64,000 nt of DNA, taken from Antedon bifida. Its lineage: Eukaryota > Echinodermata > Crinoidea > Comatulida > Antedonidae. The notes under the pieces are model-generated. The model did not search any database. It worked only from the letters and a program-made list of their open reading frames with translations, and had not been told where the DNA came from. The position numbers were made by a program, and so were the translations under genes. Position 1 is the first letter of the stretch, and every line of letters begins with the position of its first letter. The DNA lies in contig OY727103.1 in the NCBI GenBank assembly GCA_963402885.1, positions 3,634,501 through 3,698,500 of the forward strand, written 5' to 3'. Shown piece by piece: positions 27,901 through 32,363 of the stretch.

Positions 27901-29418
27901 AAAAAATCCAGAAATACAAAAAGTTATCAAACCCTGATATTCGCACACACGACCCTGTCCTGTAGTGTGGACCCTGTCCTGTAGTGTAAGATTTGTGCAT
28001 TTGAAGAATGTACCATAAACAATGGAATAATCCTATATCCTTTGTGGAATGTTCCATTTGCCTGATAGGGTTTCAAAAATGTGTTGCACGCATTATTTTT
28101 TACAACAATTACATTTCACTGGAATCATATTTTGAACTAAGGTTGGAATTTCATACTTATATTTTTACAACATACAAACTAATGCAAAAAAAAAAACATT
28201 TTAAAGATAAAATTGCAGCATGTACAAAACCAAAAATATAGCATTGCTAAACAGTGAAATGCTACTGTATAGCTACAGTATGCTGTTTACAAGCAGCACA
28301 TTCAGATAGCACCTTGAGGTCACATGGTGTGTTTGCAGCGGATATCAATCAATTTTATAAGTGCAGTGACGAATTCTGGGAACATTTTCATTAAATAATT
28401 TTGATTATTATCAACTGTATCCATCTGAATTTTGAGTAGATAACAGTTTTGTAATGGTATTTATTCTGGTCCTCAAGCTTAACTGGAAACTGAAGAAATT
28501 TTGATTCGGATCCGCGACCCAGGGCAGCCAGCAGTGCAGCGCCTACCCGATCAGCACATTGAGAATATTGTGTTTTCTGCTATACATGTTATACATAAGT
28601 AGCAATAAGGTAGTTTTGTGTATAATTTGGCAATACTACACTGACTAAATGTTCCCCTACTATCATAAAGATAAACGCTACGTTCTCGATCATTGTACAG
28701 CTGATCTGTTCTTTTCCAGACAAACTATCGCATATCAAAAATGTTTTTTTTTCTACTTGTAAAAACTATACTATTATCTAGCAAAAGAAAAAGTTTAAAA
28801 TCTTTGGTAATATTTTTTTGTGATAAGCAACTTAATATACTAAATGATACTATAACAGTGGCAGTGGCGTTAATGAATACAATCGTATTTATATGGTGCT
28901 TTTAACAATCAGCTGATTGTCCCAAAGCACTTGTTGATATGACATGTATATATAAGTATACATATTAAGTATATATAAGTATACATATTAAGTATATATA
29001 AGTATATATATTAAGTATATATAAATATATATATTGAGTATTAAGTATATATAAGTGTATATATAAGTATATATATATTAAGTATATATAAATATATATA
29101 TTAAGTCTCAAATGTGTGTTTATTAAGTAAAACAATAACAACTAAAACAATCGTGACAACGTGAAAACCAAAAACAATTTTAGGAGACTAGCTGGCTATG
29201 AAACATATTTGTAGAACTGTGAGGTTATTTGGAATAATGGTAACTCCCTAAGCCATTAAAATTTACACACATAATACACATAAACACTAATTTCACTGTA
29301 TGGTAACTGAATTGATTGCTTTTTTTTTAGCAATTGGGTATAATTACCATATTGGTTTTACTGCCCACTAAAGAAACTTAATTAACACACACAAAGAAAA
29401 AACACCCCTGCACTCATG
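27901..29418. other. Intergenic with microsatellite
   Basis: Contains a SINE-tail-like stretch (TTATATGGTGCTTTTAAC, about 28889) and, at 28943-29106, a run of AAGTATATATAAGTATA-type repeats. No exon is supported. Confidence 0.5.
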
Positions 29419-32363
29419 TCATGACAGCCCCTCTATCTCCTTTTTAAGTGTGTTAGCTAACCATGGCAGTTTAATCTCTCTTAAGGCCGCTACCAGACTC
29501 TTTTTCATGCTAGTATCCCCACTGTTCCTCCTCCACCATTTTACCAGCACAGCAAAGGCTTTTTGCTCCGTCGTTTCTTGCGTCCGTTCCAGAACTCTGA
29601 TTTCTTGTTCCAAAATGTCGTAGCTAACCATCGGAAGTTCCCTGGCAAGTTGCTTCCATTTGTTGGATGTGTTTCCGATATGTTTCGAGATCCGCTGGAA
29701 AAAGGACATCATTCCGGTTTCTAGGAAGAAGATTCATTTCACAGGTGCTTAGTATACCATTTGGAAATCCATACTTTCAATTAAAATATAATTAAAGCCA
29801 CTAGATCTATGTTAGACTTAATTTAAGGTCACGCACTACATTTTATGTAAAAATAAATACTATATGGACCTATTGCGATAAATTTTTTGTCTATAATTTA
29901 AGTGGCCCGCTCTAAATACCAGAATGAATCGCACGCGGATTGATATTCTCATATTGTGATGTGATGCACCCACTTTCGATAGATCTTGAAAGGGTAAACA
30001 AATAGAAGAACCGTAACTATTCAGCGAAAATATTAACAGATTCTGCAAAAAACAGAAAGACAATTAGCTAGCGTACGATGTTATTACATTACCGCTCTAT
30101 AACCAGCTAGGCCTACACAACTAAGCCTAGTTAAATTAGGCCTAAGACCGTACACGAACGCGACATTCGACGCGAGCTACTTAGGTAGTGCATTGTTTCT
30201 CTCCTTTTATCATAACTAACCATAAAACGTACATTTAAGACAAGGAATGACCTTGTTTTAAATTAGTATATTTATGAATTATTTTACAAAAATTTTAGGT
30301 CTAGAGTCGAACACTGAAACCATAGCATTGTATTGATACGATTCTCATGTGGAAGAGGACACCTTTAAGAAAGAAGAAATTAAAATGTATTTTCAAGAAC
30401 TTACTTTTTAAGGTTTCGCCGTCAATATGGTCAATATTAAAATCGTTCTTTGATTCTTGTTGTGAATATTTGCATTGGAAATCTGAGGAAAGAAATAATT
30501 ATGAAAATGAAATTATTGAATAAAATAATTCAGAAAGGTTTCTAAACAAAATAAACAAAACATCAACTTGCAATGAATTGTGCTTCCAGAACCCGCAGTG
30601 ATCACAGTGTTATTGTCGCCCTCTATATTTACTTGATGAAATGTTTGGCAAGAACTCGGTCCACATTCTAAAAAAAATACAAAATAATTTTAAAATGTTA
30701 CTGCTTAAAAAGATTAAATTTGGTATTGAAATAAAGAAAGTAAAGCCAAGTTAGGACGACAAAATAATATTATACCATGAGCTAATTTGCATAACATTTA
30801 CATATTTGCACTGCCAGGTGGCATTGAGGTACAGTACTCACCTTGTGCTGCAGCATCATTTGTTTTTTGTTTCTTAGAATATTCATTACTTTCTTCTACT
30901 TCCTCAACCATCCTTCGCTTAGGACGTAAAGAAGAAGGGTCGTTATTTCCTGATGAATATTCATTAGATGGTATTGCGTTGTTTGAGTTTTGAGCCGAGT
31001 TTGATCTGGTTGGAATCTCATCTTTGTTTTGTTTTTCTTTCGGCATTGGTTGAACATGAGCCACGGGTCGTTCCCCGACATCAGTCCCATCATGCAACAT
31101 GCTATCTTTGGTATCTAAACTAGGGAATGCGTCCGACTGTTCTTCTCTAGGTGGGCACTGGTTACTACTGATGTTGTTGTTATTGGAATTGACATCACTC
31201 TGTTTATCATCATCATCTTTTGTAATATCTTCATCGGATTTATTACTATTTACATTGACTAAAATAAAAAGAAATAATATATTATCGAAGGAACCCATAA
31301 TTAAGGGGACAACCTCAGGACCAAACTACAATAATCAATAATCAATCCAATAATAGGAGTGGTTCTATTTTAGTACATAATAAAGCTCATTTATCTATTT
31401 ATTATTATAACCATTTAAACGCCAGACAAGTTATAATCATATTAAGTCAGTGTTATTTTTTACTTTCATTTTGAACAAATAAAACATATGCCTACTTTAA
31501 TTTAAATAAAAATATATTGGAAGCAGATGAATTTATTATAATACTTTTTAATACTTTATAATACTTTGCCATTAGTTTAGAAAAATCTGATTGAAAATAC
31601 ACAACTACTGACCTTTGACATTGCTCCCGTCACCGCTCATTACCACCATATTTTCGTCACCTTTAACGATGCATGATGATGTCACAGCATTGTCCATCTC
31701 CATTGGAAGGTCATCCTCGCTGCTTTTGGCATCCTCCTCCTCCGTCGTGTCCTCCGTCGTGGAGTCCATTTGTGAAGCATCATCTTCATAACCGCTATCC
31801 CTGTTTGATTGTTGTTGTTTTGGTTTATAAACATTCACTGGAAAACAAATAACACCTAGCTCTTTAATGCACTCGTCAATTGTATGACCCTCTATACAAC
31901 CCCTGGGATAGTTTGCGTCATTTGTCCGATGTGTCATACCTTATGAATACCATGACGCACCATCAAAAAGTGGCTCGCCTTTAGGTGACCATGACGCACC
32001 CATTTTGACGCACTGTGATCATGTTGTTCATGATATGGTGGGTGGTAAAGTGATGGACATTGACACACCATTGTTATTGACACACCATTGTTTTTGACGC
32101 ACCCCTGCGTCAATAATTATTTGTAAATGACGCATCTATGACACACTTTTCCCGCGGGTCGCATAGTGGGTCATACAATTGACAAGTGCATTCTCATTCT
32201 CATTAGTATAAATAATCCAAGTAAAAAATGAAAGAAATATTGTAAAAAACAAATTACCAGAGACGCTACTTCCATCTCCAGTCATGACAACATTGTTTGA
32301 CGAACCCTTGACAATGCAGTGATTGACAGGTTGGGCGTGGCTTGAGGACACACCTTCCATCAT
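29419..32363 (-). CDS. RHIM-like motif and death-domain protein (novel architecture)
   Basis: Six minus-strand exons join in phase: 32258-32363 (start ATG 32363), 31613-31837, 30842-31258, 30572-30667, 30405-30482 and 29419-29720, giving 407 residues; every intron is phase 1. Residues 16-34 (CIVKGSSNNVVMTGDGSSV), 91-109 (CIVKGDENMVVMSGDGSNV) and 262-280 (VNIEGDNNTVITAGSGSTI) are three copies of one motif, I/V-x-x-G-x-x-N-x-V-x-x-x-G-x-G-S, each at the end of its own exon. It resembles the RHIM core of RIPK1/RIPK3/TRIF and the insect cryptic RHIM. Residues 111-249 are acidic, Ser/Asn-rich, with basic RPKRRM and SKKQKT patches. Residues ~315-405 look like a death domain (ISKHIGNTSNKWKQLARELP..., then EQKAFAVLVKWWRR, then LVAALREIKLPWLANTL). 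Role inferred: oligomerising adaptor in innate immune or death signalling. The intron after exon 4 needs a GC donor (GCAAGT). Upstream exons are not excluded. Confidence 0.7.
31875..32183. mobile_element. TIR-4 element inside intron 1 of the RHIM-like gene
   Basis: GTCAATTGTATGACCC and (reversed from 32183) GTCAATTGTATGACCC form perfect outer ends, followed by imperfect CTATACAACCCCTGGG / CTATGCGACCCGCGGG. The interior is rich in TGACGCACC and GACACACCATTG repeats and has no coding frame. A related copy is at 37271-37574. Confidence 0.8.

Follow-up and report, generated by a model that had tools for sequence, protein, structure and literature searches.

A stretch of 64,000 nucleotides from the feather star Antedon bifida (contig OY727103.1, positions 3,634,501 to 3,698,500; hereafter the window) contains, on its minus strand, a gene predicted to encode a protein of 407 residues, in which three related motifs precede a C-terminal death domain. 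Judged by its residues, the motif is not a RIP homotypic interaction motif (RHIM) by definition, although it shares the G-x-x-N element of that motif. The layout as a whole varies a known theme, for which insect IMD and ZBP1 are precedents. Our preferred reading, held tentatively and with slightly less than even confidence, is that the gene encodes a crinoid intracellular adaptor that would work like insect IMD, by means of a non-canonical self-assembly motif.

Gene structure, motifs and death domain

A first-pass annotation, made from the letters alone, had proposed six exons at 29419-32363 and a 407-residue model, and comparison with other crinoids bears this out. All five junctions align without an indel to an annotated but uncharacterised protein of Antedon mediterranea (403 aa, 87% identity to the window protein), including the junction at an unusual GC-AG donor after motif 3, and the exon 1 junction lies in a gap-free part of that alignment. 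The only other relative found in the protein database (2122 candidates) was LOC117105274 of Anneissia japonica (438 aa, also uncharacterised, 52% identity). A three-sequence profile search returned the same two relatives at E values up to 10 (4706 candidates); because both searches need shared five-residue words, a distant echinoderm ortholog may have been missed. With annotated crinoid orthologs in support, the gene is real. A death-domain search of the animal's own genome (315.6 Mb in 27 contigs, the window being C16:3634501-3698500) gave one self match and no second copy of the gene.

The features on which the argument rests are as follows, all on the minus strand.

29419-32363, minus: gene, six exons, 407 residues (joined reading frame)
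32258..32363, minus: exon 1, coding part, with the start codon at 32363 and motif 1 at its end; GT donor, phase 1
32259..32321, minus: motif 1, HCIVKGSSNNVVMTGDGSSVS; 49 nt from the Gly codon to the exon end
31613..31837, minus: exon 2, acidic linker A followed by motif 2; GT donor, phase 1
31614..31676, minus: motif 2, SCIVKGDENMVVMSGDGSNVK; 49 nt from the Gly codon to the exon end
30842..31258, minus: exon 3, acidic and Asn-rich linker B, without a motif
30572..30667, minus: exon 4, motif 3; GC-AG donor, phase 1 (exon register, ortholog alignment)
30573..30635, minus: motif 3, QVNIEGDNNTVITAGSGSTIH, a diverged copy (BLOSUM62 score, position-specific scoring matrix (PSSM) scan, exon register)
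30405..30482, minus: exon 5, short conserved linker leading to the death domain (ortholog alignment)
29419..29720, minus: exon 6, death domain (six predicted helices) and stop codon

Motifs 1 and 2 are near-identical: aligned without gaps over 23 residues, they reach a BLOSUM62 score of 82. The corresponding scores of motif 3 with these two are 34 and 38, values matched by 6 and 3 of 1000 protein shuffles. The original description of three near-identical motifs therefore fits the first two and not the third, which is nevertheless a true copy by its exon register: in each of the three motif exons, the distance from the first base of the invariant glycine codon to a phase-1 splice site is exactly 49 nt. 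This common register, together with the common intron phase, leads us to regard the three motifs as exon duplicates. All five introns are in phase 1; four are GT-AG, and the fourth has the GC donor. An alternative GT donor, which would end exon 4 at 30593 and delete GSGSTIH, was rejected because both orthologs retain the deleted residues and because it is the GC donor that places exon 4 in the 49-nt register shared by the motif exons. GSGST is kept in both orthologs and is supplied by the GC donor alone; Anneissia then has two extra residues.

Three motifs in three species provide nine instances, with eight distinct sequences. Across all nine, the glycine, an asparagine at +3 and a second glycine at +9 are invariant, and the consensus of the motif, which spans 20-27 residues, is [CV]-[IVN]-[VI]-[KHE]-G-x-x-N-x-[VA]-x-[MT]-x-G-x-x-S. 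Identity to Anneissia is 0.73 in the motifs and 0.71 in the death domain, as against 0.43 in the remaining N-terminus, and when the mask marking the motifs was shifted circularly, 2 of 308 placements (the unshifted one counted) reached the observed identity. A pattern written post hoc from the motifs occurs three times in the protein but in none of 20000 shuffled versions of the N-terminus, and a PSSM scan of the window gave high scores at the three known motifs only. By the identities and the mask shifts, the conservation of the motifs above the N-terminal background is not due to chance.

The C-terminus is, by its profile match, a death domain, as had been proposed. In isolation the window domain scores 26.3 bits against Pfam Death (PF00531; cut-off 22.6), and all three members of the family match Death at E<=10 (best 1e-6). 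The full-length proteins score 22.4 (window), 25.1 (A. mediterranea) and 21.2 bits (Anneissia), so that two of the three fall barely below the cut-off. AlphaFold2 predicts six helices (mean predicted local distance difference test score (pLDDT) 64, predicted template modelling score 0.47), and of 153 Foldseek matches the top three are the death domains of ankyrin-G and Fas/FADD, but their E values are 0.35-0.86 and the query model included four to five intron-derived residues ahead of exon 6. Against the PDB, a profile of the domain matched 6 distinct sequences at E<=10, among them the death domains of THOC1 (0.036, 0.37, 0.53) and FADD (0.16); the window domain alone reached a best E of 0.22, and the aligned full-length set matched no PDB chain at E<=10. 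Searched against its own genome, the domain found, besides itself, 15 matches of at most 34% identity (E 0.0016-7.1), 10 of which overlap Pfam Death intervals when compared by eye. In the window protein no other Pfam family exceeds its cut-off, and no kinase family matches the window, A. mediterranea or Anneissia proteins at E<=10.

Comparison of the motif with RHIM

The protein had been read at first as a kinase-free, multi-RHIM adaptor. The layout part of that reading stands, with three motifs, a disordered linker, a death domain and no kinase, whereas the RHIM label does not. The RHIM core tetrad is (V/I)-Q-(V/I/L/C)-G (PMC9444067; this and all other papers are cited from excerpts of their text). 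It is present in 0 of the 9 instances, where the corresponding residues are IVKG, VVKG, IVHG or NIEG: an allowed first residue occurs in six, Q in none, an allowed third residue in none and G in nine. The looser form [IV]-x-x-G is found in the six instances of motifs 1 and 2; in motif 3, position 1 is not [IV], and the hydrophobic residues before the glycine lie one position off those of RHIM. Measured against the RHIM pattern G-x-x-N-x-[M/L/I], G and N at +3 are present in all nine, but +5 is V in eight and A in one.

A Pfam-A scan, in which HMMER filters drop most weak matches, left RHIM unmatched in the full protein and in the three motif peptides. Searching the genome with the RHIM profile PF12721 gave 8 sites at E<=10, the best at 18.8 bits (cut-off 20) and none in this gene; this search, with 17 candidates scored exon by exon in six frames against a 22-position model and without a known-RHIM positive control, was of limited power. 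One of 14 control genomes gave a sub-threshold match. Three sub-threshold matches at C14:18376274-18392915 (18.8, 16.2 and 16.2 bits) are one peptide in three copies, with VQLG but without G-x-x-N, and are probably a repeat or a chance match, not a RHIM. Given the missing tetrad and the lack of a PF12721 match, we rejected membership of the motif in RHIM.

What the motif and RHIM have in common is G-x-x-N, the hydrophobic residues after it, their length and their location within disordered sequence that precedes a death domain, and an analogous or very diverged motif would therefore fit. Such a role can be entertained because insect cryptic RHIMs (cRHIMs) are also irregular: in those of Aedes, V and G form the conserved core and position 3 may be polar (N in PGRP-LC; PMC9531809). 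As excerpted, one survey reports that the RIPK1 of ambulacrarians, starfish and amphioxus lacks RHIM and that echinoderms have MLKL, with Anneissia not named there (PMC11507063), and a second confines RHIM to vertebrate RIP kinases (PMC9573974). In contrast, a review lists orthologs of RHIM proteins in Drosophila and Branchiostoma (PMC9444067).

A proposed adaptor mechanism and its rivals

In the mechanism that we favor, the three flexibly tethered copies of the motif would serve as homotypic, multivalent assembly elements, probably forming a beta-arch stack. Concentrating the motifs would draw the C-terminal death domains together, and the clustered death domains could then recruit death-domain partners, for example of the FADD or MyD88 type. 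Self-assembly through the motifs, the amyloid nature of the assembly, the identity of its partners and any function in immunity or cell death are inferred. There is room for such a coupling element, because ambulacrarian RIPK1 is reported to lack RHIM while echinoderm MLKL is present (excerpt of PMC11507063). Since the N-terminus is predicted to be unstructured (AlphaFold2 with a two-sequence alignment, mean pLDDT 38), each motif would be a tethered, isolated linear element. In an aggregation profile (11-residue average, values modest), four of the top five N-terminal peaks of the window protein lie within motifs, and the fifth, at residues 83-93, extends into the beginning of motif 2; the three highest peaks of A. 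mediterranea are the motifs.

The closest precedent by layout is IMD, which has a cRHIM ahead of a C-terminal death domain and is not known to contain a kinase. The likeness, as described, is that of an adaptor joining a RHIM-like element to a C-terminal death domain; unlike IMD, the crinoid protein has three motif copies and lacks VHIG as such, with [IV]-x-x-G in 6 of 9 instances, and no motif-bearing receptor was found. RIPK1 resembles it in that non-globular sequence with a short motif precedes the death domain, but here there is no kinase domain (none at E<=10) and no RHIM tetrad, and the motif is present in three copies. ZBP1/DAI is alike in having three RHIM-type motifs in one protein and differs in its Z-alpha domains and true RHIMs; it is not known to have a death domain. 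The amyloid-forming cRHIM of the IMD adaptor and the three RHIMs of ZBP1 are both described in the literature (PMC9531809 and PMC9835746; PMC11239871), and the original remark that no protein with this layout had been described was too strong. In a search limited to PubMed Central papers with an open licence, the top-ranked papers on tandem or multiple RHIMs described no such protein in their titles or the first lines of their abstracts, and the top-ranked crinoid and feather-star papers mentioned neither LOC117105274 nor RHIM. A further likeness is to the BASS and PP amyloid signalling motifs in the NLR systems of bacteria and fungi; these motifs are about 20 residues long, contain glycines and polar residues, lie at protein termini and are in some cases repeated (PMC7889193, PMC8086366). 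Length, composition and repetition are comparable here; however, those systems pair an NLR with an effector bearing the same motif, often encoded next to it, and our searches, which were of low sensitivity, found no partner.

Several points weigh against the self-assembly mechanism, the absent tetrad and the unmatched RHIM profiles among them. K, H or E at position 3 would probably be unfavorable in an amyloid core. Motif 3 of Anneissia ranks fourth among the aggregation peaks, behind a linker peptide, and the peaks are modest overall; the AlphaFold2 model, built on the alignment of two sequences, contains no strands; and among PDB chains, those of RHIM amyloids among them, a profile of the motif gave no match at E<=10. 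The search for the motif elsewhere in the genome that the first-pass annotation had called for was run by peptide, pattern and PSSM, and at low sensitivity it turned up no other locus. Peptides of motifs 1 and 3 found only this gene, with 2 and 1 candidates scored in an insensitive search, and a degenerate pattern gave 4 matches, 2 of them in this gene, as against 2 for a backward control. Across 28 loci (224 kb) picked from 150 death-domain hits in the genome, the best other score was 13.2, in a low-complexity repeat, compared with 9.5 for the best shuffled sequence and 50-59 for the true motifs. One of 10 more loci (L036) overlaps this gene, and the best score in the other nine was 10.9. A protein-database search by region (222-705 residues, 22 candidates) found no partner and missed the Anneissia ortholog too. 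Because of that miss, and because the peptide searches scored so few candidates, the absence of a partner is weak evidence.

The main rival, possible though on the doubtful side, is that the motifs are short linear docking peptides, each adding a strand to a globular partner with threefold avidity, and that there is neither self-assembly nor amyloid. The charged or histidine residue at motif position 3 and the absence of a motif-sharing partner suit this explanation, as does the way in which the conserved motifs stand isolated within an acidic, disordered chain. The acidic linker with its basic patch, already noted at first pass, is visible in the sequence, and it holds further conserved elements, two of which can be placed as follows.

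31047..31094, minus: conserved linker element HDGTDVGERPVAHVQP, residues 166-181 (position worked out by hand from the exon coordinates)
30864..30920, minus: basic patch KRR-x12-KKQK, residues 224-242 (ortholog alignment)

Linker B (residues 113-255) evolves fast, with 0.41 identity to Anneissia, yet 14 of the 16 residues of HDGTDVGERPVAHVQP are identical (0.88), which makes it a possible interaction or processing site. A second island, at residues 46-56, is 0.82 identical. Both are similar in size to the motifs and are not RHIM-like, as docking peptides would predict. On the other side, three copies and a G/N turn pattern seem to recall homotypic motifs more than docking peptides. Linker A also contains, at 31779-31799, a conserved DSGYEDD (DSGYDDD in Anneissia), which we take to resemble a phospho-degron.

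It is less likely that the motif is a genuine but strongly diverged descendant of RHIM, a cRHIM in a RHIM-derived adaptor that crinoids would have retained in a death-domain gene; we consider this quite improbable. The complete conservation of G-x-x-N (9/9), [IV]-x-x-G in 6/9 and the reported RHIM-protein orthologs of Drosophila and Branchiostoma (PMC9444067, as excerpted) speak for such a descent, and so does the latitude of the Aedes cRHIM, which keeps V and G and allows a polar position 3 (PMC9531809). They are set against the lack of Q at position 2 or of V/I/L/C at position 3 in every instance, V or A at +5, a motif 3 without [IV], and a PF12721 genome search in which this gene was not among the 8 sites.

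A nuclear death-domain protein with THOC1-like localization is very unlikely. In such a protein, the basic patch would be a nuclear localization signal, the acidic stretches would bind nuclear factors and the motifs would dock there. The patch is presumably of the bipartite nuclear localization signal type, and KRR and KKQK are kept in 3/3 orthologs, with a spacer of 11 in Anneissia. THOC1 accounts for three of the 6 distinct PDB sequences matched; nevertheless, the E values of these matches all fall short of significance, and FADD does about as well as THOC1. Beta-helix or adhesin repeats, the fold that the first-pass annotation had named as contrary to its own reading, are hardly credible: motif 1 matches DUF3060 weakly, with 12.1 bits for the window protein and 14.4 for A. 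mediterranea, below the cut-off of 23.1, the model has no strands, and single rungs separated by about 55 to 150 residues of predicted disorder are unlikely to form one solenoid.

Animal signalling amyloids are known mainly through RHIM and the insect cRHIM. The crinoid motif, which is conserved, duplicated in series and not a RHIM and which precedes a death domain, is a small, concrete candidate for a second animal class, and one that can be tested with peptides. We think it unlikely, but worth stating, that crinoids, and perhaps other echinoderms, possess a signalling amyloid motif distinct from RHIM that was duplicated by exons inside a death-domain adaptor. If so, it would replace RHIM as the nucleator where RIPK1 is reported without RHIM and MLKL is kept (excerpt of PMC11507063), and the question posed in an excerpted review, whether RHIM is the only metazoan signalling amyloid (PMC7889193), would be answered in the negative. 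The proposal bears on how assembly is triggered in echinoderms, with a RIPK1 reported to lack RHIM and, in the present genome, a large death-domain repertoire. Should the motif not assemble, the protein would still be an uncharacterised death-domain scaffold, so far found in crinoids only, with an unusually clear exon duplication.

Surrounding sequence and the death-domain repertoire

Ten long open reading frames (ORFs) of the window were scanned against Pfam. Six are above cut-off, as DUF6729, a metallo-beta-lactamase-fold protein, a Ras-family exon, a patatin exon, a rhodopsin-type receptor and a C-type lectin exon; one has a sub-threshold apolipoprotein match and three have no match. None of the ten is an NLR or a kinase. 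Within the gene, intron 1 contains a 43-nt inverted repeat (31866-31908 / 32150-32192, 86% complementary) around 241 nt, resembling a miniature inverted-repeat transposable element, and downstream of the gene, at 28940-29111, are TA-rich direct repeats, several with 23-nt spacing.

The genome has a large death-domain repertoire, with at least 150 matches at E<=0.001 (150 scored of 241 candidates). The matches are dense on contigs C7 (~11.3-18 Mb) and C10 (~11.7-16.1 Mb) and occur also on C12. Loci L015 and L020 contain several successive death-domain exons; five of the seven ORFs tested there match Pfam Death, and the other two match nothing and look COR-like by eye. Locus L021 was also noted as part of this repertoire. 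At L014 (C15:16290000-16299900), a death-domain ORF adjoins a TIR ORF, and four death-domain hits there, which score 43.7-44.0 bits and fall within 38 kb, suggest tandem copies.

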